DNA of 64,000 nt from Erwinia tasmaniensis Et1/99. GTDB lineage: Bacteria; Pseudomonadota; Gammaproteobacteria; Enterobacterales; Enterobacteriaceae. The DNA is taken from the NCBI RefSeq assembly GCF_000026185.1, contig NC_010694.1, positions 310,001 through 374,000 of the forward strand, given 5' to 3'. The notes under the pieces were generated by a model that was given only the letters and a program-made list of their open reading frames with translations, searched no databases and was not told where the DNA came from. Shown one piece after another: positions 50,276 to 62,374 of the stretch. Position numbers and translations under genes: made by a program. Every line of letters begins with the position of its first letter. Position 1 is the first letter of the stretch.

Positions 50276-50773
50276 ATGGAAATGTCTCAACTGACCGCAC
50301 GTCGCCCCTATCTGCTGCGCGCTTTTTATGAGTGGTTGCTGGACAACGATCTCACGCCGCATCTGGTCGTCGACATTAATTTGCCCGACGTGATGGTTCC
50401 GCTGGAGTATGCGCGTGATGGGCAGATCGTGCTGAACATCGCACCTCGCGCGGTGGGCGATCTGGAGTTGGGCAATGATGAAGTCCGCTTCAGCGCACGC
50501 TTTGGTGGCGTTCCGCGCCAGGTTTCAGTTCCGCTAGCAGCCGTACTGGCGATTTATGCCCGTGAAAACGGTGCCGGCACGATGTTTGAACCTGAGCCAG
50601 AGTACGATGGGGTCGACGAAAGCGAGGCCTCAAACGGCGAAGATCAAGCCCCGGAAACGGTCATGTCGGTCATTGACGGCGATCGTCCTGATGACAGCGT
50701 GACCGGTGACGATGGCCCCGATGACGAACCGCCTCCGCGCGGTGGGCGTCCGGCGCTGCGCGTGGTGAAATAA
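50276..50773 (+). CDS. sspB: ClpXP adaptor SspB
   Basis: Delivers ssrA-tagged peptides and RseA fragments to ClpXP. 165 residues. The ssrA-binding domain (RRPYLLRAFYEWLLDNDLTP to about residue 110) is followed by an acidic flexible linker and the C-terminal ClpX-binding tail RGGRPALRVVK. It starts 4 bases after sspA. Confidence 0.97.
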   Translation: MEMSQLTARRPYLLRAFYEWLLDNDLTPHLVVDINLPDVMVPLEYARDGQIVLNIAPRAVGDLELGNDEVRFSARFGGVPRQVSVPLAAVLAIYARENGAGTMFEPEPEYDGVDESEASNGEDQAPETVMSVIDGDRPDDSVTGDDGPDDEPPPRGGRPALRVVK

Positions 50774-50926: not shown

Positions 50927-52684
50927 TTAGTACACATCGCGCAGATAGCGCTTCTCTTTCTTCAGCTGGTCCACATAATCCGCCGCGCGTTCTGACGACA
51001 TGCCGCCAAACTGACTGATAATGGCGTACAGCGCTTTGTCCACGTCTTTCGCCATGCGTGACGCATCGCCGCAGACGTAGAAACAGCCGCCTTCCTGTAG
51101 CCAGGCAAACAGCTCTGCCCCCTGTTCCAGCATACGATCCTGCACGTAAATTTTATCCGCCTGATCGCGTGAGAAGGCCAGGTCGAGGCGGGTCAGCAGT
51201 CCGCTTTCCTGCCAGGCTGACAGCTCATCGCGATAGATATAATCGTGCTCCTGATGCTGGTCGCCAAAGAACAGCCAGTTTTTACCTTTTGCGCCCAGCG
51301 CTTCGCGCTCCTCAAGGAAAGCGCGGAACGGCGCGATGCCAGTACCTGGCCCGATCATGATCAGCGGCGCATCGTTGTTCACCGGCAGGCGGAAGGCCTT
51401 ATTTGGCGAGATAAAGATAGCCGGCTTTTCACCGCGCTTCACGCGTTCCGCAAGGTAAGTCGAGCAGACGCCGCCGCGTGCCCGCCCGCCGCTGTGATAG
51501 CGCACGGAAGCAATGGTCAGATGCACCTGGTTTGGATGGGCTTTCTGGCTGGAAGAAATAGAGTAGGCGCGGTGCTGTAGCGGTCGCAGCAGGGCCATAA
51601 ATTCGGGAATGCTGAGCGAGCGGGTGGCATCGAGCTGTAGCAGGTCGAGAGTGTCTTTCCCCCATAGCCATACGCCTAGCGCATCCCTGTCATCGTGCTG
51701 TAGCACATGACGCAATTCCTGATTGCCGGTGTTCTGTCCTACCCATTCGATCAGCTTGCGCGAAGGTTCTGAAATCTCGAACTGGTAGGTCAACAGGTCG
51801 CCCAGGCTTCTCTCAAAGCCCGGCACCGGCGTATCGTAGTCGGATTTCAGCTGGGCCAGCAGCAGGTTAACCAGTGCCGGTTCGTTTACCGGAATAACGC
51901 CCAGCGCATCGCCAGCCTCATACTTCAGGCCGCTGTCGCTCAGGTCAAACTCAAAGTGGCGGATGTCCTTGCCGGAATCTTCGCCGGAAAGACGTTTGTT
52001 GGTGACCAGCGTTGCCGCGTACGGATTATTTCGGTTACCGCCGGGGATAGCCGGTGCCTCCGGCGCGCTGTCCAGCACGTTGCCGCTGCTGCCGGCGCTG
52101 GCGGCGAACTGTGGCATCGACTGGCCAAGCCACGCGTTGGACGGCTCCTCATAGTCGATATCGCAGTCAATACGTTCATAGACCCGTTTAGCGCCCAGCT
52201 GCTCAAGACGCATATCGATAAATTTACCCGCCTGGCAGAAGCCGTCATAGCCGGTATCGCCAATCGCCAGCACCGCAAAGTGCATTTGTTCAAGGCGTGG
52301 TGCGGTGCTGGCAGAGATGGCCTGCCAGAACAGCTGGGCATTGTCCGGCATTTCACCTTCGCCGTAGGTCGACGTGATCACCAGGACGTGGCGCATGGTG
52401 GCGAAGACGTCGATATCCACTTCATCAAGGCTCTGAACGACCGGGACCAGGCCTTTCGCACGCGCGGCCCTGGCGGCGCTTTGCGCCAGCGCTTCGGCAT
52501 TGCCCGTCTGCGAACCAAACAGGATATGCAGCTGGGTAGTGGTGGCCGATGCCGATGCCCCGGCTGCCTGGGGCTGATTTTCCAGTACCAGCAGGCGTGA
52601 GTGTAACCCGGCAAGAAAACCTGCCAGCCAAAACTTCTGCTCGCCATTAAATGGCGCATCTTCAGGAATATAAGGAATTTTCAT
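50927..52684 (-). CDS. CysJ-like NADPH diflavin reductase, probable electron donor to the GltB-like protein
   Basis: 585 residues. An N-terminal arm (IPEDAPFNGEQKFWLAGFLA) like CysJ-type proteins precedes a flavodoxin/FMN domain at about 51-195 (LFGSQTGNAEALA; TSTYGEGEMPDNA). The FAD domain covers about 220-430 (RAYSISSS 372-379; GGVCSTYLA 404-412). The NADPH domain has GPGTGIAPFRAFLEER (445-460) and CGDASRMAKDV (538-548), ending RDVY like CysJ. Such proteins pass electrons NADPH-FAD-FMN to a partner. No CysI or other sulfite reductase hemoprotein is encoded here. The gene follows the GltB-like gene by 51 bases on the same strand, at the place of gltD. The likely job is therefore to reduce that enzyme. 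This is inference; it could instead serve another acceptor encoded elsewhere. Confidence 0.85.
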   Translation of the reverse strand: MKIPYIPEDAPFNGEQKFWLAGFLAGLHSRLLVLENQPQAAGASASATTTQLHILFGSQTGNAEALAQSAARAARAKGLVPVVQSLDEVDIDVFATMRHVLVITSTYGEGEMPDNAQLFWQAISASTAPRLEQMHFAVLAIGDTGYDGFCQAGKFIDMRLEQLGAKRVYERIDCDIDYEEPSNAWLGQSMPQFAASAGSSGNVLDSAPEAPAIPGGNRNNPYAATLVTNKRLSGEDSGKDIRHFEFDLSDSGLKYEAGDALGVIPVNEPALVNLLLAQLKSDYDTPVPGFERSLGDLLTYQFEISEPSRKLIEWVGQNTGNQELRHVLQHDDRDALGVWLWGKDTLDLLQLDATRSLSIPEFMALLRPLQHRAYSISSSQKAHPNQVHLTIASVRYHSGGRARGGVCSTYLAERVKRGEKPAIFISPNKAFRLPVNNDAPLIMIGPGTGIAPFRAFLEEREALGAKGKNWLFFGDQHQEHDYIYRDELSAWQESGLLTRLDLAFSRDQADKIYVQDRMLEQGAELFAWLQEGGCFYVCGDASRMAKDVDKALYAIISQFGGMSSERAADYVDQLKKEKRYLRDVY

Positions 52685-52735
52685 CGCGTTTATCTACTCA
52701 ATCCCGTTTCTGAGTCACTGTTGATATTCAGTGCG

Positions 52736-55700
52736 TTATCCGGCTAATTTCCCGACCGCTGCCGCTAATTCAGGCAGTGCCGCGCGGGCAAACAGCTCTT
52801 CAAAGTCAGGCAGTCGTCCCAGTACATCTCTGTTGCACGCATCCTGATACAGGATCCAGCCATAGGTGGCCAGACTATCCATTGAACGAATATTACGTTG
52901 CGTCAGAGCCGCTTTGTAATCCGCCATGCGTTTGGCGCCGATCAGGCAGGCCAGCTGCTCATCGCTGTAGCTTTCAATCGCGGCGCGGCCGTGACGCTGT
53001 AATTTGCTAATCAGAGTAAAGTCCTCCGTCATCAGCAGATTGCGCACCGCTTTTTCCACCGCCGGGTCCTGCACCGCGGTGCCTTTCGGCAGGCGGGACA
53101 GCGCCAGCTGCTGGGCGCAGCTCAAAACGGTGTAGTTGTTCAGCAGCACCAGCATTTCAGGGGTGTCCATTGCGCCGTAGGCCGGAACCGATCCGTTAGC
53201 GATAGGTTTGCCAGCACGCCATGCCGCTTTGAATTTCGCCACCTGGTGACCCGCGAGGGCGGTGGAAAGCTCTTCCAGCAGGTCCTTACGCGCTTTTGCC
53301 TTAAGGATTTCCGCACCGTCCTGATACAGCAGCAGGGAACGGGGCATCACGTAAACAAAATGCTGGCTTTCCGTTTCCCAGTGGTCGAGTAACCAACGGG
53401 CGCGTGGCGAGCCGGTGGCCTCGAGATGCCAGTTCAGCATCGTCAATACCGCCTGCTGATGCACGCGAGCCATCTCATTGTCATCACTGATGGCGGCGAT
53501 CATCACCGAGTCAGCGGCCGCGGACCCTGCCAGCGTGCCATAGGGGTCGTACTGGTAGGCGAAACCGCCGCTCATACCGTTGCCGAAACCCGTTCCGTAG
53601 GTGCCGAGGTTCAGCACCGCGCCGTTGGTCATATACTCACAGCAGAAATCACCGACGCCTTCGACCACCGCCGTGGCCCCCGAGTTACGCACGGCAAAGC
53701 GGTCGCCCGCCTGGCCTTGGGCAAACAGACGCCCGCCGGTGGCCCCAAACAGGGCAAAGTTGCCGATCAGCACGTTGCCTTCCGCATCCTGCGAGCCGCC
53801 GCCCGGCGACATCACGATAATCTCGCCGCCGCACTGGCCTTTACCTACGCCATCGTTGCAGGTGCCCTGGTGCTGTAACCGCATGCCGTCATTACAGAAC
53901 ACACCATAAGACTGGCCGGCCGAACCGGCGGTGACGATCGTCACCGTGGCCGGAGCAAGGTAGCGACGACCGCGATCGTCCTGTAGTGCCGCCGGGATGC
54001 GGGCCACATGTTCGGCGTTCAGCTGATGGTTGAGCAGGCGTTCGATATCGATAGCCAGCAGCCCACCGACGCTTTTATGACGGTTGTTGAGGGTGATGCC
54101 ATCCCCCAGGAGGATCTCGCGCGATCCTTTGGTGACCAGCTGTTCCTGTAAGCGATCGATCCAGTCGTTATCCAGCGTGAAATCTTTTTCCAGATACACC
54201 GGATGGCTGATTTTTACTTCGGGAACCACGGTCAGCATGGCGCGCAGATCCAGCTTACCTACTTCCAGCGGATGATCCATCAGGTGCAGCAGGTCGGATC
54301 GGCCGCGGGCTTCGCGCAGTGAACGCAGGCCGAGCCGCGCCAGCATTTCACGTACTTCGTGTGCCACGTTGATAAAATACTGCGCCAGCTGGCGCGGATC
54401 GCCGTCAAACGCCTCGGCGTTGGTGGTCAGACCCGCCGGGCATTTCACATTGCAGTTTTTTGCCATCACGCATTTCAGCATCATCAGCGCCGTGGTACCG
54501 AACTCAAAGCTGTCACCGCCCAACAGCGCAGATTTCACCACATCGCTGCCGGTCTGCTGTGCGCCGGAGCAGCGCAGCAGGACTTTCTCACGCAGGCCGT
54601 TGGCGCAGAGCGCCTGATGGACCTCAGCGATGCCGATTTCCGCCACGCGTCCGGTGTATTTCAGGCTGGTGACGGAAGCTGCCCCGGTGCCGCCGGTATT
54701 TCCGGCCACGTTGATCACATCAGCACCGGCTTTTGCCACGCCCACCGCAATGGTGCCAATCCCTTCCGAGGAAACCAGCTTGACGATGACGCGTACGCGG
54801 GCGGCTTTACAGTCGTGGATCAGCTGCGCCAGATCCTCGATTGAGTAGGTATCGTGGTGCGGAGGAGGGGAGACCAGCTCTACGCCTGGCGTACCGCCAC
54901 GGGCTGCGGCGATTTCTACCGTCACTTTGGCCGACGGCAGCTGGCCGCCTTCGCCGGGCTTCGCCCCCTGACCAATTTTAATTTCCAGCTCTTCCAGCAT
55001 CGGATCGGCCAGATAGGCTGCCCAGACGCCGAAACGGCCGGACGCCAGCTGCTTAATGCGTGATGCACGGAGGGTACCGTGACGCGAATAGTGCTCGCCG
55101 CCTTCACCACAGTTGCTCATGCCGCCGACCATATTGGTGCCGTGCGCCACCGCTTCGTGCGCTGGAGCGACCAGCGCGCCGTGGCTCATCGCCCCGGAGG
55201 CAAAGGTGCGGGTGATTTCGTGCGCCGGCTGAACCTCGCTTAACGGCAACGCCGGAGCGATAGTGAAGATGCGCGCCAGATACTCCGCCGCTTTGCCGCT
55301 TGCCGTCAGCAGCAGCGCATCCGCCGTTACCTCGGCCCGTGAAATTTCTTCACCGAAGCGTTTAGCCAGCACGCCGCACAGGGTGGTCAGGCGTTCCTGC
55401 TCGCTTTTCAGTCCGCTTACCGCATCGCTCAGGCGCAGCCTGAACTGGCCTTCGCATTCTGCTATGGCCTCGCATACCAGGCCGCGCACCGCAAAGCCGT
55501 TGTTAACCAGCGAATAACGGCCCAGTTTGCGGGTGAATTCCGCTTCGCTGTCGACATGGGTTAAATCTGCCGGGAAGGCAAGAATATCGCGTAGTGCCGC
55601 CGGACGGCGTTTGCGTTCTTCCAACATCAGGCTGGAGAACTGGCGGTAGTCAGTGGTAATAGAAAAGTTATCGATGACCTCGTCAGGAATACGTTCAAAG

Positions 55701-58270
55701 CTGCTGTCGGCGAAGGATTTTGTTTTGATATTAAAAGCATTATCCAGTTTTGCCAGCGTCATCAGGCGGATAAAGTTATCCTCCTCACGCGGTGTATCGG
55801 CAAAGCGAATAGGCTGCTCCGTCATATCAATGAAGGTACGCACCGCAATGGTGCCGTAGGAGTGGCCTGCGCCTTCCGCCCGTTCTTTGAACAGGCCGAG
55901 CAGCGGAACGTCACTTTCACCCTGCACGCGCAGCGCGCTCTGATGCCAGTCAACCGCCATCTGCGCGATAGAGGCAAAGCCCGCACCGCCCACCGGGGTT
56001 TTGATGTTAGGGAAATACTTTTTCAGCACGCGATCTTCAGTATCCAGGAAGTTCGGCTCAAAGAATTCGCCGCAGCTGTAGCTCTCCACGGTACACAGGC
56101 CCACTTTGCCCATGGTTTTCATCAGGGCTTTCTCAGCGGCTTTAGCGTAACGCTTAAAGGCTTTATTGCCGCCTTCACCCTCGCCATACTTCTCTTCGGC
56201 GCGCATCTGCACGCCCAGGGGATAGATAGCGGAAGCGCCAAAGCCCAGCGCCGCCGCGATATGGTGGGAGGAGATGCTCTGGCCGCTTTCAACCACCAGC
56301 GACACGTCCAGACGCAGACCTTCCTGCACCAGGCGCTGGTTAATGGCGGACACCACCAGCAGCATCGGGATAGCGGCGCGCGTGCTGGAGAGATGCCGGT
56401 CGGTGATCACCGCGATGCCGCCCTGTTCACGGGCGAAGTCGACAACCTGCTGCGCCAGGTCATCAATGGCGTGCTCCAGTGCATCCGCATTGGCCGCGCG
56501 GCTTGCGGCATCGCTGCCGATCGCCGGCGTATAGAGCATGTCAAAGCGAGCATATGGCGCCACGGTCTGCTCACGCAGTTGCAGCATATCAAGGTGCGTC
56601 AGGATCGGCGTGGGAACGACGATCTGTTGGCCCTTGCTGCGACCTAAATGCGGCTTGGCACCAAGAGCAACTCGCAGGGTCATGCCGTCAACCTCACGGA
56701 TGGAATCCAGCGGGGGATTGGTCACCTGGGCAAAACGCTGGGAGAAATAGTGCGCCATGCCGCCTTCATGGTCGGACAGGGCGTTGATGGCGTTGCCGTA
56801 ACCCATTGCGGAGATTTTCTCTGCGCCAGTGGTCAGCATCGGGTCCATCATAAACTTGAAGCTTTCCTGATTGTAGTAGTACGCCACGAATCGCTGCCAG
56901 GTTTTGAGATCGCCGCCGTAACGCAACGGCGATCCCTGCTGCTCAGCCGGCACCACCGGCAGATCCTGCAACAGCACGCGGGACTGCGCCAGCAGGGCAG
57001 GATAGTCTGCCACCGCCGCCAGTTTTTCCAGCGCTTCAATCGTGGTGTAGCTGCGCTTCTCGCGGTGATCGTAATACAGCATACCGCCCGCTTCGATACG
57101 GCCACGGCGCAGCACGCTTTCGGGCGGGAAGGCGATCTGGCCTGCTTCCGACATCGCGCCGATATAGTCGGCGGTTTCCACCGAGCGCAGTGGGCGCAGG
57201 CCGAGGCGGTCGAGACGCGCGCCGATCACCTCGCCATTGCCGAAAATCAGCGCTGCCGGGCCGTCATTTTTCTCTTCATACAGGGAGAAATACTCCAGCA
57301 TGGCGCGCACTTCCGTCGACAGTGACGGATCGTTTTCCCAGGCGGGCGGCATCATGGACACCACGGCGGTGATCAGGTCAAGATTGTCTTCCATCAGGCG
57401 GCTGTGGATGCTCTGATCAAGACGCGAGCTGTCCGATTGCCCCTTAGGACGCACGATTTTCTTACCGCGCGCCAGCGCCAGCGCGGCTTCGGCAATACGG
57501 TTTTTACGGTCGGTGTTCAGCTCGCCGTTGTGCGCCATCAGTCGGAACGGCTGCGCCATGGTGGTATGCGGGTCGGTATTGGTTGAGAAGCGCGTGTGGA
57601 AGAACAGACCGCGTACCTGATGATCGGGATCGGTCAGGTCCTTGAAATACGGGATCACTTCATTCGAGTTCAGACGTGCTTTCAGCACCTGGGTACGCGA
57701 GGAGAGTGACAGCGGGTAGAGTCCGCCGAATTCACTTTCGCTAAACGCGCGGGCTTCGATTTGCAGCAGGGCGCGATAAATGCGCTTCTCGAAATCAATC
57801 TGGCTGGTGATATCGTCAGGGGCAGCAAATATCCATTGCACGATGGGCAGCTGGAAAGAGACCGCTGCCGGACGCAATACGCCGTTATCCAGCGGCATAT
57901 CGCGCCGGGCAATAATCTTCAGGTCACAGGAGTGCAGCGTCTCTTCAACCAGACGCTCGGCGTTGGCGCGCAGCGTGCTGTCCTTCGGCACGAAAAAGTT
58001 ACCCACGCCAAAACGCCCAGCTTCCAGCGCTTGCCCGGTGATTTTACGGAAGAAGTGCAGCGAAAGGTCCACGTTGACCCCGGCTCCATCCCCCACGCCT
58101 TCGGCTGACATCCCCCCACGGTGCGGAACTGTGCACAGGGCACCGTGTGCCATTTCCAGCACCTCATGGGTTTGTGCGCCATCCTTACGCGTAATGAAGC
58201 CCACGCCGCAGCTGTCGCTGTCTTTCGATGGGTCATACAAGCCGTAAGGGAAAGGTTTTGAGTTGGACAT
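52736..58270 (-). CDS. GltB-like glutamate synthase with extra internal domain and C-terminal extension
   Basis: 1844 residues against about 1486 in E. coli GltB. Class II amidotransferase with probable catalytic Cys21 after a short propeptide (DSDSCGVGFI), plus RFSTNTDPHTTMAQPFRLMA. Central domain to about 890 (YFSQRFAQVTNPPLDSIREV). An extra region of about 100 residues (905-1010) has no GltB counterpart. The FMN synthase domain is at about 1015-1330 (GQGAKPGEGGQLP; GNTGGTGAASV). Iron-sulfur cysteines C1267, C1273 and C1277 are spaced x5/x3 where GltB has x5/x4. The GXGXG domain is at about 1440-1590. The last 255 residues exceed the normal tail by about 175. The start follows GGAGG. No gltD follows; a diflavin reductase gene does. 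The expected reaction is glutamine plus 2-oxoglutarate to two glutamates, with an altered electron path. Confidence 0.85.
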   Translation of the reverse strand: MSNSKPFPYGLYDPSKDSDSCGVGFITRKDGAQTHEVLEMAHGALCTVPHRGGMSAEGVGDGAGVNVDLSLHFFRKITGQALEAGRFGVGNFFVPKDSTLRANAERLVEETLHSCDLKIIARRDMPLDNGVLRPAAVSFQLPIVQWIFAAPDDITSQIDFEKRIYRALLQIEARAFSESEFGGLYPLSLSSRTQVLKARLNSNEVIPYFKDLTDPDHQVRGLFFHTRFSTNTDPHTTMAQPFRLMAHNGELNTDRKNRIAEAALALARGKKIVRPKGQSDSSRLDQSIHSRLMEDNLDLITAVVSMMPPAWENDPSLSTEVRAMLEYFSLYEEKNDGPAALIFGNGEVIGARLDRLGLRPLRSVETADYIGAMSEAGQIAFPPESVLRRGRIEAGGMLYYDHREKRSYTTIEALEKLAAVADYPALLAQSRVLLQDLPVVPAEQQGSPLRYGGDLKTWQRFVAYYYNQESFKFMMDPMLTTGAEKISAMGYGNAINALSDHEGGMAHYFSQRFAQVTNPPLDSIREVDGMTLRVALGAKPHLGRSKGQQIVVPTPILTHLDMLQLREQTVAPYARFDMLYTPAIGSDAASRAANADALEHAIDDLAQQVVDFAREQGGIAVITDRHLSSTRAAIPMLLVVSAINQRLVQEGLRLDVSLVVESGQSISSHHIAAALGFGASAIYPLGVQMRAEEKYGEGEGGNKAFKRYAKAAEKALMKTMGKVGLCTVESYSCGEFFEPNFLDTEDRVLKKYFPNIKTPVGGAGFASIAQMAVDWHQSALRVQGESDVPLLGLFKERAEGAGHSYGTIAVRTFIDMTEQPIRFADTPREEDNFIRLMTLAKLDNAFNIKTKSFADSSFERIPDEVIDNFSITTDYRQFSSLMLEERKRRPAALRDILAFPADLTHVDSEAEFTRKLGRYSLVNNGFAVRGLVCEAIAECEGQFRLRLSDAVSGLKSEQERLTTLCGVLAKRFGEEISRAEVTADALLLTASGKAAEYLARIFTIAPALPLSEVQPAHEITRTFASGAMSHGALVAPAHEAVAHGTNMVGGMSNCGEGGEHYSRHGTLRASRIKQLASGRFGVWAAYLADPMLEELEIKIGQGAKPGEGGQLPSAKVTVEIAAARGGTPGVELVSPPPHHDTYSIEDLAQLIHDCKAARVRVIVKLVSSEGIGTIAVGVAKAGADVINVAGNTGGTGAASVTSLKYTGRVAEIGIAEVHQALCANGLREKVLLRCSGAQQTGSDVVKSALLGGDSFEFGTTALMMLKCVMAKNCNVKCPAGLTTNAEAFDGDPRQLAQYFINVAHEVREMLARLGLRSLREARGRSDLLHLMDHPLEVGKLDLRAMLTVVPEVKISHPVYLEKDFTLDNDWIDRLQEQLVTKGSREILLGDGITLNNRHKSVGGLLAIDIERLLNHQLNAEHVARIPAALQDDRGRRYLAPATVTIVTAGSAGQSYGVFCNDGMRLQHQGTCNDGVGKGQCGGEIIVMSPGGGSQDAEGNVLIGNFALFGATGGRLFAQGQAGDRFAVRNSGATAVVEGVGDFCCEYMTNGAVLNLGTYGTGFGNGMSGGFAYQYDPYGTLAGSAAADSVMIAAISDDNEMARVHQQAVLTMLNWHLEATGSPRARWLLDHWETESQHFVYVMPRSLLLYQDGAEILKAKARKDLLEELSTALAGHQVAKFKAAWRAGKPIANGSVPAYGAMDTPEMLVLLNNYTVLSCAQQLALSRLPKGTAVQDPAVEKAVRNLLMTEDFTLISKLQRHGRAAIESYSDEQLACLIGAKRMADYKAALTQRNIRSMDSLATYGWILYQDACNRDVLGRLPDFEELFARAALPELAAAVGKLAG

Positions 58271-58696
58271 CGTGGGCCTCCTGAACTTCTTTTGACATTA
58301 CCTGTATTTTTTCAGGCACAGAGCGCAACGGAGTGTTGCCTCAGGCTCTGTATCATTTGCTTGCCGCTAGAATGCGGACACTGTGACTCCGGGCATGTCA
58401 CTATCAGACAAAATCTTAACGTCCTTTAATGACCTGCTCGCTAAAATCCTGGTCTCAAATGGGTGATAACTTGCATCACGAGGGGATCGTCTTGCTGCAT
58501 AGATATGCCGAGACACTGGCCCATAAGAAAAGCTTCCGGCGAATTTCCAACTTATCGGGAAAGCTTACTCAGGTCAAATAGCGGCTTTACTTATGCCTTT
58601 TTGCGCTTTTGTTGGGTTATCGTTTTGATATGTAAGAATATATCAGCTCTTTATTCTCTGTTGTGTGGGGGGCGGATGGGCTAGATAGTGTGAGCT

Positions 58697-58710
58697 GACT
58701 CACTATAGGG
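58697..58710 (+). promoter_or_regulatory. Exact match to T7 RNA polymerase promoter core
   Basis: GACTCACTATAGGG equals positions -11 to +3 of the phage T7 class III promoter consensus, which includes the bases read by the specificity loop and the initiating GGG. The upstream -17 to -12 part (TGAGCT) does not match. Function is unproven. Confidence 0.35.
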
Positions 58711-59188
58711 CAGGGAGCAAATCTCTGCACCATGCTGGTGCCGGGGTGATCGCTGGCATAATATGCTGATAATGAGAGTAAAGCCGCATGAACGCACTGT
58801 ATTTGCCGTGGTGGAGTTTTTGAATAAAAAGGAGTCAGAATATTAGAAATATTAATGACAGGCGAAATGGTTAAAATTTCATAAAATATGAATGGTTATG
58901 CGATATGCGAAGTTGAAGGTGGCGCGGGTGGCCAGCGGCGTCGGCAGAATGAGCCGGGCTGAATTCGGAACGGCCCTACAGATTATGCAGTTATAAAATT
59001 TAGTCAATAGTTTTTCGCTTCACTTTCTCACCCTCGGCAACACGATCGGATGGCTGCGGGTCATGTCCTTTGTGCCACTGCGCTTCGATGGGCTGCGCGC
59101 CCGTATGCAGACGATAATTCTGCCAGCGCCAAGTCAGAATGCACGATAAACGTGCACGGCCGTGGCTTTGTGCAGATCGCACGGCGCA

Positions 59189-59216
59189 TTGGTGTTTTAA
59201 ACAATTCCGGTATGAT
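59189..59216 (+). promoter_or_regulatory. Candidate arcB promoter
   Basis: -35 TTGGTG (59189-59194), 16-base spacer, -10 TATGAT (59211-59216), about 30 bases before the arcB start. AAGGA ribosome binding site follows. Confidence 0.5.
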
Positions 59217-59245
59217 TGCTACTATCAGGCTGAAAAGGATCTTTT

Positions 59246-61585
59246 ATGAAACAAATTCGTTTGTTAGCGCAGTACTACGTGGATTTGATGGTAAAACTGG
59301 GGCTGATCCGTTTTTCACTGCTGCTGGCTTCTGCGCTGGTCGTGCTGGCGATGATTGTGCAAATGGCCGTCACGATGGTGCTGCACGGTCATGTTGAAAG
59401 CATTGATATGGTACGTTCGGTGTTTTTCGGCCTGCTGATAACTCCGTGGGCGGTCTATTTCCTTTCGGTCGTCGTGGAACAGCTGGAAGAGTCGCGTCAG
59501 CGGCTGGAGCGGCTGGTGGATAAGCTGGAGGAGATGCGTAAGCGCGATCTTGAGCTAAATCAGCAGATGCAGGGCAATATCACCCGCTTAAATCAGGAGA
59601 TTGCCGATCGCATCAAGGCTGAAGAGGAGCGCCTGCAGGTGATGGCGCGGCTTAAAGATGAGATGGCGCGTCGCGAAGAGGCGCAGATTGAACTCGAACA
59701 GCAATCCTCATTTCTGCGATCTTTTCTTGATGCCTCACCAGACCTGGTGTTCTACCGCAACAGCGATCGTCAATTTTCCGGCTGCAACCGGGCGATGGAG
59801 CTGCTGACGGGCAAAAGTGAAAGGCAGTTGATTGGGCTCTCGCCCAGGGAAGTGTATGACGACGCTGCGGCCACCAAAGTGCTGGAAACGGACGAAAAAG
59901 TATTCCACCACAATGTTTCGCTCACCTATGAGCAGTGGCTGCAATATCCTGACGGGCGCAAAGCCTGTTTTGAAATCCGTAAGGTGCCCTATTACGACCG
60001 GGTTGGTAAACGCAGCGGGCTGATGGGCTTCGGACGCGATATAACCGAGCGTAAGCGTTATCAGGACGCTTTAGAGAACGCCAGTAGGGAAAAGACGACC
60101 TTTATCTCAACGATCAGCCACGAGCTGCGTACGCCGCTTAATGGCATTGTCGGTCTGAGCCGCATCCTGCTGGATACCCATCTTGACCCGGAACAGCTTA
60201 AGTACCTTAAAACTATCCATGTGTCGGCCATTACCCTCGGCAACATTTTTAATGATGTGATCGAGATGGACAAAATGGAGCGGCGCAAAGTTCAGCTGGA
60301 TAACCAGCCGATGGACTTCACCAGCTTTCTTACTGACCTGGAAAATATCTCCGGGCTGCTGGTCGAGCCCAAAGGACTCCGGTTCGTGCTGGAGCCGCAG
60401 TTACCCCTGCCACAAAAAATCCTGGTCGATGGCACCCGCCTGCGCCAGATCCTGTGGAATCTGATTGGTAATGCGGTGAAATTTACCCAGCAGGGTGAAA
60501 TTGTGGTGCGCGTTGGCTATCAGAGCGAAGAGTGCCTGCGTTTTGATGTTCAGGATTCCGGTATTGGCATCCCGCAGGACGAGCAGGACAAAATTTTTGC
60601 CATGTATTACCAGGTGAAAGATCGGCACGGCGGTAAACCTGCCACCGGCACCGGCATTGGGCTGGCCGTTTCTCGCCGCCTGGCTCAAAGCATGGGCGGT
60701 GATATCAGCGTTACAGGCGCACCCGGTGAAGGCTCATGTTTTTCACTGACGCTTAACGCCCCGCGTGTCGCTGAGGCCTCACAGGACGCACGAACGGAAG
60801 ATGACATGCCGCTGCCGGCCCTGCACGTACTGCTGGTGGAGGATATTGAGCTGAATGTCGTGGTCGCCCGTTCGGTATTGGAAAAGCTGGGCAACAGCGT
60901 AGAGGTGGCGATGACCGGCCAGGATGCGCTGAACATGTTTGAGCCGGATGAATTCGACCTGGTGCTGCTGGATATCCAGCTACCGGATATGACCGGACTG
61001 GATGTGGCACGCGCTATTCATCAGCGTTATCCCCATGCACAGCTGCCACCGCTGGTGGCGCTGACGGCTAACGTGCTGAAGGACAGGCGGGAATATCTGG
61101 ATGCGGGTATGGATGACGTCCTGAGCAAGCCGCTGGCCGTTCCTGCGCTGACGGCAATGATCAAGAAATACTGGGACTTTCAGACAGAGGACTTTCCGGC
61201 GGCCCCCGAGCTTAGCATGGGAGAAAAAGAGCGGGCGCTACTCGATTTACCCATGCTGGAACAGTATATGGAACTGGTCGGCCCCAGTTTAATCCATCAG
61301 AGTCTGGCGATGTTTGAGCAGATGATGCCTGGATATCTGGCGGTACTGGATTCAAATATGATGGCTCGCGATCAGAAGGGCATTGCGGAAGAAGGGCACA
61401 AGATTAAGGGGGCGGCGGGTTCTGTCGGGCTGATGCATTTGCAACAGGTGGCAAAACAGATCCAAAGCCCGGAACTGCCGGCATGGTGGGACAACGTTCA
61501 GGAGTGGATCGATGAACTCAAACTCGAATGGCGGAATGATATGGAAGTTTTGCGGCAATGGGTAACAGACGCTGAAAAAAAATGA
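59246..61585 (+). CDS. arcB: Aerobic respiration control sensor kinase ArcB
   Basis: Tripartite sensor kinase that phosphorylates ArcA when quinones are reduced. 779 residues, normal length. Two membrane helices (about 23-44 and 58-77), a coiled coil (79-150), and a PAS domain with the redox cysteines C180 and C241. Histidine kinase His292 in STISHELRTPLNG; N, G1 and G2 boxes follow (LIGNAVKF, DSGIGIP, GTGIGLAVS). Receiver Asp576 in LVLLDIQLPDM. Hpt His718 in EEGHKIKGAAGS. Its last bases overlap the 3' end of the opposite-strand ArcZ RNA. Confidence 0.98.
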   Translation: MKQIRLLAQYYVDLMVKLGLIRFSLLLASALVVLAMIVQMAVTMVLHGHVESIDMVRSVFFGLLITPWAVYFLSVVVEQLEESRQRLERLVDKLEEMRKRDLELNQQMQGNITRLNQEIADRIKAEEERLQVMARLKDEMARREEAQIELEQQSSFLRSFLDASPDLVFYRNSDRQFSGCNRAMELLTGKSERQLIGLSPREVYDDAAATKVLETDEKVFHHNVSLTYEQWLQYPDGRKACFEIRKVPYYDRVGKRSGLMGFGRDITERKRYQDALENASREKTTFISTISHELRTPLNGIVGLSRILLDTHLDPEQLKYLKTIHVSAITLGNIFNDVIEMDKMERRKVQLDNQPMDFTSFLTDLENISGLLVEPKGLRFVLEPQLPLPQKILVDGTRLRQILWNLIGNAVKFTQQGEIVVRVGYQSEECLRFDVQDSGIGIPQDEQDKIFAMYYQVKDRHGGKPATGTGIGLAVSRRLAQSMGGDISVTGAPGEGSCFSLTLNAPRVAEASQDARTEDDMPLPALHVLLVEDIELNVVVARSVLEKLGNSVEVAMTGQDALNMFEPDEFDLVLLDIQLPDMTGLDVARAIHQRYPHAQLPPLVALTANVLKDRREYLDAGMDDVLSKPLAVPALTAMIKKYWDFQTEDFPAAPELSMGEKERALLDLPMLEQYMELVGPSLIHQSLAMFEQMMPGYLAVLDSNMMARDQKGIAEEGHKIKGAAGSVGLMHLQQVAKQIQSPELPAWWDNVQEWIDELKLEWRNDMEVLRQWVTDAEKK

Positions 61586-61690
61586 CCCCGACCGAAGCCG
61601 GGGTGCGCGAAGACTGCGCCAACACCAGGGAAATTGGTAACCTGTGCTGTTCTGATAGGTCTCGTCGGGAGCACAGGTTTGGTATTGGGT
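61575..61690 (-). ncRNA. arcZ: Hfq-dependent small RNA ArcZ
   Basis: The minus strand carries the highly conserved 3' half of ArcZ: CCCTGGTGTTGGCGCAG (the target-pairing seed, within 61613-61633), then TTCGCGCACCCCGG, a CCCCG/CGGGG terminator hairpin (61585-61604) and a T-run (61575-61582). It has the same position and orientation as in E. coli, convergent with arcB, and the terminator overlaps the arcB stop. A 5' hairpin ACCTGTGCT/AGCACAGGT is visible at about 61640-61679. The 5' end at about 61690 is estimated from the known 121-base length. ArcZ activates rpoS and flhD-type targets and is repressed by ArcA-P; in Erwinia it affects motility, attachment and virulence. Confidence 0.88.
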
Positions 61691-62374
61691 AAAACTCAAA
61701 ACGTCTGTTCACTACCTTAGCAAATTCTGAATCACATGTTACCAGATTCATTAAAATGTGTGATGTTGAACGGTGTTTGTCAACAGGAGACCCGAATTTG
61801 AACATATAGTCAAGCACGGAATCAGTTTACGCGTCAGGTTGCTTGTTTTTTAAGCGCTTCTGTATTTTATTTGACCAAGACTATTAGGGGGAACACGTAA
61901 CATGAAAGGGTTTCTCACCGCAGCTGAACTTAACTTTTTAAAAGTAACATAATTCCGTCTTAACTTTATGTTTTTATTAGTTTTACCCTGTTTTTTTAAG
62001 TAATATCTGAATAAATTTGACTTCAGCTGGTACAAATTATCCGATAGTGAGTGAGAAAAATTTAAAAGCTGAGTCTGTGATGGTGTTGAAGCTCTCTGAG
62101 CAGTACCTTTGCATAACAAAATAAGTAGCATAATGAAAAAAACAGTATGAAGTTATTTCAAAAATTGTCAGTTTACATTGATGCAATACCTTTAATCATA
62201 AGATATTTAAATCAATTGCATGTGGTGCGCTCGGCCATTATGCCGTCAAATTATGGTTTTTAGCCCAATAAGGGGTCTTTATGGAACCGATTCCGGCGGG
62301 AACAGATTAACTAAACTTTATGGAGAAATCCTGTTGTATTCTTATGCTGAACCAAATTTATGGAGCCCTGGTTT
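61691..62374. other. AT-rich spacer where elbB is expected
   Basis: About 680 bases between arcZ and mtgA. E. coli has elbB here; no ElbB-like frame is seen on either strand. The middle (61840-62260) is much more AT-rich than the neighbouring genes. Small open frames (such as 61850-62131 minus) show no family features. The arcZ promoter should lie at its left end and the mtgA promoter at its right. Confidence 0.45.

Follow-up and report, generated by a model that had tools for sequence, protein, structure and literature searches.

The glutamate synthase locus of the Erwinia tasmaniensis window (the whole 64,000-nucleotide stretch analyzed here) carries a long gltB-type gene paired with a CysJ-like diflavin reductase gene, and the two very probably encode a diflavin-type NADPH-dependent glutamate synthase that has replaced gltBD at its own locus. 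The large subunit (P0001, 1844 aa; 52736..58270, minus strand), identified by Pfam, NCBIfam, and alignment, is followed on the same strand, after a 51-base intergenic gap (52685..52735), by an NADPH-FAD-FMN reductase of 585 aa (P0002; 50927..52684, minus strand), proposed from its domains and motifs as the electron-donor subunit. Given the 51-base same-strand gap, the two genes are a probable operon. The original prediction had given these coordinates, lengths, and spacing, all of which were correct on recheck, and the Pfam domains of both proteins agree with its identification of a GltB-like protein beside a CysJ-like diflavin reductase. It had overlooked the extra length of the large subunit, the shifted third Fe-S cysteine, and the match with the address of E. 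coli gltBD. Glutamate synthase activity is the best reading of the pair in view of the genes present, their replacement of gltBD at the locus, the intact cofactor and catalytic motifs, and the co-occurrence and correlated divergence of the two genes.

Locus comparison places sspB (50276..50773, plus strand) on the reductase side and arcB (59246..61585, plus strand) on the gltB side. The window order is zapE-rplM-rpsI-sspA-sspB, reductase, long gltB, arcB, mtgA, in an orientation that matches E. coli K-12, which has mtgA-elbB-arcB-yhcC, gltB-gltD and then, beyond further genes, sspB-sspA-rpsI-rplM-zapE. In a relative (L109), sspB directly adjoins gltD within the gene order gltD-gltB-yhcC. By this arrangement and the address shared with E. 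coli gltBD, the pair occupies the position of gltBD. As had been claimed, no GltD-like gene is present at the locus, and a tblastn search of the window with E. coli GltD gave no match at E ≤ 0.001. E. coli yhcC and elbB, which adjoin arcB in that species, likewise had no tblastn match in the 64-kb window, where arcB is flanked by the stretches 58271-59245 and 61586-62359.

The host genome (4.07 Mb) has a single Glu_synthase-family match, the long GltB itself, and lacks any match to PF14691, the N-terminal family of GltD, at 100% completeness by the tool's figure; the same search found matches in 9 of 14 control genomes, E. coli among them. A normal gltD elsewhere in the genome, which the original prediction had named as speaking against it, was thus not found.

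The long GltB has the Pfam domains of a standard GltB in the standard order (GATase_2, Glu_syn_central, Glu_synthase, and GXGXG). Cys21 (58208..58210, minus strand), which lies after a 20-residue propeptide and aligns with Cys12 of E. coli GltB, we take to be the catalytic glutaminase cysteine; of 82 long GltBs, 81 have its equivalent, and L079, which lacks it, is a shorter frame. Residues C21, R51, R227, N248, G249, and D280, presumed to be the catalytic cysteine and glutamine-site residues, align with E. coli GltB, as do Glu1056 and the three cluster cysteines.

The Fe-S cysteines 1267, 1273, and 1277 (54440..54472, minus strand), located by alignment and motif count, are spaced C-x5-C-x3-C in all 82 long GltBs, including that of the window, whereas the standard GltBs compared (E. 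coli, two relatives, and two tandem standard copies) have C-x5-C-x4-C. The third cysteine is therefore one residue closer, and four residues are missing just behind the motif relative to standard GltB. We class the long GltB as a GltB variant that keeps the three cysteines and departs from the standard x5/x4 spacing; given this change, the cluster may be of the 3Fe-4S type or possibly a different one.

At 1844 aa against about 1490 aa for a standard GltB, the protein carries ∼340 extra residues and has two parts absent from standard GltB. The core of an insert (residues about 905-1003; 55262..55558, minus strand) precedes the FMN/synthase domain; residues 809-1003 match about 40 residues in Azospirillum GltB, leaving about 155 extra. 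AlphaFold2 predicts the insert to be a b-b-b-a-b-b-a domain (pLDDT 79, pTM 0.68), for which structure comparison gave no clear fold match. The second part is a C-terminal extension (residues about 1650-1844; 52739..53323, minus strand): the alignment to solved GltB chains ends near residue 1649, with about 190 C-terminal residues to spare. The extension is predicted to be all-helical, but the longer model behind this prediction, which was meant to show the docking surface, is of poor overall quality (pLDDT 57). Over its last 200 residues the protein shares 97% identity with one from Erwinia pyrifoliae.

The C-terminal extension, used as a query against 84,980 species genomes, yielded 272 relatives, of which the best 80 were kept for adjacency analysis. 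The original prediction had proposed counting how often the two genes co-occur, and in all 80 of these loci (best 80 of 272) a P0002-like reductase directly follows the long gltB in the same orientation, with 56–86% identity to P0002; at one locus (L060) the reductase runs off a short contig and was matched over 423 columns. First-start frames of the two genes overlap by 4 bases in 21 of the 80 loci, and the gltB stop lies within ATGA in 19. Carriers among these best 80 span Pseudomonadota and Actinomycetota and include Methylobacillus, Rhizobiaceae, Hyphomicrobium, Hansschlegelia, Rhodococcus, Mycobacteroides, Pantoea, Erwinia, Mixta, Corticibacter, and Lampropedia.

Two order-level samples gave the same picture. 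Among 247 genomes of the window's order, six have a long GltB and all six have the reductase adjoining; in the order of an Agrobacterium (249 genomes), a long GltB occurs in 15 genomes, with the reductase adjoining by coordinates in 15/15. In the latter sample the 15 best P0002 matches (591–801 bits) were those same 15 reductases, the next best match scoring 475 bits, and one genome (G347) has a long GltB with one in-frame stop. The three adjacency samples partly overlap (genome G257 is that of locus L024). No long GltB without an adjoining reductase was seen among the 80/80, 6/6, and 15/15 cases, and the adjacency is more than chance.

In two genomes of the window's order, a standard gltB-gltD lies directly upstream of the long gltB-reductase pair in tandem (L097:31-12386 and L098:4171-15978), the GltDs being 34–36% identical to E. 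coli GltD. Both glutamate synthase types thus share one locus there.

Carrier genomes differ in whether they also keep the standard enzyme. From the 80, 35 genomes were chosen and 34 examined (their completeness was not given): in 23 the pair coexists with a standard GltB and a GltD-family protein, and in the remaining 11 (nine Pantoea/Erwinia/Mixta and two Methylobacillus) the long GltB is the sole GltB-type protein of >1000 aa. Ten of these 11 pair-only carriers have no PF14691 match, and the match in the eleventh lies in a 701-aa frame, not GltD-sized. Five Methylobacillus loci (L009-L013) divide into three species with both types (L009-L011) and two with the pair only, and such mixed states within one genus offer a natural setting for a replacement study. 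In Corticibacter populi (G278:C3:461715-473767), the open frame that holds the GltD-family match is 979 aa long, and about 9 kb separates the standard from the long GltB gene.

In the 23 of 34 carriers where a standard GltB and a GltD-family protein persist, glutamate may be made chiefly by a route other than the pair. This retention, the unusual extra parts of the long GltB, and a glutamate dehydrogenase-family protein in the host genome (429-aa frame) would all fit an enzyme acting as an amidotransferase/reductase on a different 2-oxo acid or in a side route, with glutamate supplied by glutamate dehydrogenase. We consider such a role unlikely: the glutaminase and synthase-site residues align with those of E. 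coli GltB, the protein passes the PRK11750 glutamate synthase cut-off (1062.1 bits vs 1047), and gltBD has been replaced at its own locus. Moreover, the pair and PF14691 never occur together among 18 sampled genomes of the window's family: three have the pair without PF14691, 12 have PF14691 without the pair, three small genomes have neither, and none has both.

The partner of the long GltB is a member of the NADPH diflavin reductase superfamily, with its FMN, FAD, and NADPH domains (Flavodoxin_1, FAD_binding_1, and NAD_binding_1 in Pfam) and motifs present. All 82 paired reductases retain the motifs for FMN, FAD, and the NADP loop, together with a C-terminal RY[LV]RDVY and its C-terminal aromatic residue, and the NADPH 2'-phosphate motif is found in 81/82, L021 showing a conservative change. 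We presume that these motifs have the roles known from work on CysJ and P450 reductase; with its cofactor motifs intact, the paired reductase looks functional. GltB-linked reductases also have an N-terminal segment of about 45 residues that is missing in solo reductases and is a candidate docking element.

The solo reductases come from the order of the Rhodococcus sample, which we take to be Mycobacteriales, where 59 of 298 genomes have a P0002 match at E ≤ 1e-60. Among the best 30 loci of that search, the top eight (562–817 bits) all adjoin a long GltB, 10 are short solo reductases matching from query residue 37 or later and so without the N-terminal segment (L142-L146, L149, L152, and L159-L161), and the other 12 belong to frames at least 1300 aa long. 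Ten frames neighboring solo copies were scanned and showed no constant neighbor; three of these frames had a Pfam family, different in each case. Further P0002-like reductases occur as second copies at L105:8722-10485, L106:8038-9822, L107:7632-9620, and L108:7691-9451, each of these nitrite-linked paralogues adjoining a siroheme reductase-family protein; the L106 copy also has in its vicinity a formate/nitrite transporter, as well as a protein that combines PP2C-like and kinase domains.

The original prediction had regarded separability of the two genes in relatives as evidence against a dedicated pair. From the side of the long GltB the link held, no copy without the reductase having been seen in any case examined; from the side of the reductase it held only for the closest reductases, since divergent Mycobacteriales reductases and one P450 fusion occur without GltB. 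Strict monophyly of GltB-linked reductases, which a first tree had recovered as one clade (25 rows), did not hold up under wider sampling. In a second tree, a P450-fused Paracoccus reductase nests inside the GltB-linked group on a long branch, and in the widest tree solo Mycobacteriales reductases split the group, so that 32 GltB-linked rows need two changes, or one forced change when only starred branches are counted; this tree left out seven earlier rows, five of them far “other” rows and two GltB-linked (L078 and L012). On these trees, the GltB-linked reductases are best described as a lineage and not as a clade exclusive to GltB.

The widest tree unites GltB-linked, solo, and P450-fused reductases in one group (99, starred), apart from CysJ (96, starred), nitrite-linked (100, starred), and nitrate-fused (100, starred) reductases. 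The siroheme-linked, nitrate reductase-fused, and P450-fused relatives mark the reductase as a portable donor module, with GltB one of several acceptors in the wider family, and the solo copies and the P450 fusion indicate that these reductases can work with other acceptors.

Diflavin relatives that stand alone or have heme or siroheme partners would also suit an arrangement in which the long GltB is fed by free ferredoxin or flavodoxin, the reductase serving to reduce that carrier or supplying several acceptors. Such an arrangement is improbable. At the presumed site of the ferredoxin loop of ferredoxin-dependent glutamate synthase (Fd-GltS), the long GltB has no insertion and is 5 residues shorter, not longer, than NADPH-type GltB; the reductase has its own flavodoxin-like FMN domain; and it adjoins the long GltB in every case examined.

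It is hardly credible that P0002 is just a normal CysJ, serving to reduce sulfite or nitrite and placed beside gltB by accident: public records do name it “sulfite reductase subunit alpha” and it exceeds the cut-off of the NCBIfam model of that name (PRK06214; 478.6 vs 432 bits), but it misses the TIGR01931 cysJ cut-off (611.7 vs 668.15 bits), falls apart from CysJ in three trees, and has sspB and gltB as neighbors with no CysI hemoprotein beside it, while the host has its own cysJIH. Pairing of the reductase with a sulfite or nitrate reductase subunit was another finding that the original prediction had said would count against it, and the genome instead has a separate cysJ-cysI-cysH 2.65 Mb from the pair (at C2:3.01 Mb). 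There, a second diflavin reductase (C2:3014498-3016219), 39–41% identical to P0002, is followed by CysI and CysH, which are 84% and 79% identical to their E. coli counterparts.

The two subunits have diverged together: their protein distance matrices correlate at r = 0.955 over 82 pairs, a value reached by 0/1000 permutations, with species relatedness uncontrolled. The set comprises the window and the loci left from 85 after L011, L017, L023, and L060 were omitted for short open frames. In the reductase trees, Erwiniaceae group with Comamonadaceae in all three cases (99, starred; 100/99, starred; and 99, starred), and Rhodococcus, an actinomycetote, falls within the proteobacterial part in two (93, and 95, starred) and weakly so in the third. 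The Rhodococcus placement speaks for transfer between phyla, and there are signs that the pair moves as a unit.

Plasmid records were also searched, and five of the 56 with a match at E ≤ 1e-100 were examined. Plasmids of Shinella, Ketogulonicigenium, and Tsukamurella carry the reductase right after a “glutamate synthase-related protein”, the Ketogulonicigenium plasmid being conjugative and of the IncP type; a Paraburkholderia plasmid has a related diflavin reductase fused, as annotated, to nitrate reductase. The fifth, Paracoccus sp. TOH plasmid p2 (NZ_CP098363.1, at position about 151–154 kb; L131:5705-8617), encodes a 970-aa stop-free frame joining a cytochrome P450 (Pfam p450, 69.4 bits vs cut-off 22.8), which is unannotated in the record, to a P0002-like reductase. 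This frame, clustered with glutamine synthetase homologues, aldehyde dehydrogenases, and glyA, is a natural P450-diflavin fusion derived from the GltB-linked reductase lineage.

Taken more broadly, we think it reasonably likely that the pair represents a further glutamate synthase class, in which a diflavin reductase is the dedicated beta subunit, the alpha subunit is enlarged, and the Fe-S cluster is re-spaced and possibly different. Such a class would move across phyla as a unit of two genes and would have taken the place of gltBD at least twice, in Erwinia/Pantoea/Mixta and in some Methylobacillus.

Under the proposed glutamate synthase function, glutamine would be hydrolyzed at Cys21 of the long GltB, the ammonia would pass to 2-oxoglutarate at the FMN site, and the resulting 2-iminoglutarate would then be reduced. 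Electrons would enter as NADPH at the reductase, move from FAD to FMN within it, and be passed one at a time from its flavodoxin-like FMN domain to the Fe-S cluster and FMN of GltB, so that GltD and its two 4Fe-4S clusters would not be needed. We propose this path because of gene content, conservation, and family knowledge: the FMN domain would be a natural one-electron donor to the GltB cluster, and from sequence we infer direct contact between the subunits and this order of transfer. The insert, the C-terminal extension, and the remodeled cluster loop may together form a new docking surface, the FMN domain of the reductase being predicted to dock close to the cluster, beside the insert or the C-terminal extension.

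The GS/GOGAT route is the main entry of nitrogen into biomass at low ammonium. If the proposal is true, the beta subunit of glutamate synthase can be exchanged outright and the two GltD clusters dropped, and the pair would provide a simpler system for the coupling of the two GltB active sites to electron arrival. A nitrogen enzyme may be hidden where a “sulfite reductase subunit alpha” is annotated beside a “glutamate synthase-related protein”, and it would be wrong to label gltD-less genomes as GOGAT-negative, among them those of the Erwinia, Pantoea, Mixta, and Methylobacillus examples.

The chemistry and the protein families are known, and their combination was found nowhere described in the open-licence literature: a search of open-licence papers in PubMed Central gave no description of a GltB-diflavin pair. 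The available text of one candidate paper concerns an ordinary gltBD and not the diflavin pair (PMC12915299). The available part of a 2021 review gives GltD, ferredoxin, or a fused NADH form as glutamate synthase donors and contains no occurrence of “diflavin” (PMC8097209).

Among known systems, CysJ shares the flavodoxin, FAD, and NADPH domains of P0002 at about 39–41% identity, but its partner is cysI, whereas P0002 is partnered with gltB, lies on a separate branch, and coexists with a cysJIH elsewhere in its genome. In diflavin-containing nitrate reductases, a monomeric example of which was reportedly described in 2020 in a paper cited by PMC10704036, a related diflavin reductase is fused to its acceptor, which is nitrate reductase and not GltB. 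In Fd-GltS of the Synechocystis type, too, the large subunit receives its electrons singly from a donor that is not GltD; it differs in that the window's GltB has no insertion at the presumed ferredoxin-loop site and has an NADPH reductase encoded beside it. The closest printed parallel is the F420H2-dependent glutamate synthase proposed in 2012 for methanogens, as given in the available part of that paper, whose donor module also has relatives in sulfite reductases (PMC3448663); that donor is an Fsr-N/FrhB-type F420H2 dehydrogenase, in contrast to the flavodoxin/FAD/NAD protein found here. In the classical NADPH enzyme, as set out in the available part of the 2021 review, electrons run from NADPH through FAD and the two 4Fe-4S clusters of GltD into GltB, where they reach the 3Fe-4S cluster and then FMN; association with GltD has the further effect of coupling the two sites of GltB (PMC8097209). 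The window's pair shares with GltB-GltD the domain order of the large subunit, the catalytic cysteine, the synthase region, the three cluster cysteines, and the genomic address, and differs from it in having a diflavin reductase in place of GltD with its two 4Fe-4S clusters and, in place of a large subunit of about 1490 aa with x4 spacing, a long GltB of 1844 aa with an insert, an extension, and x3 spacing.
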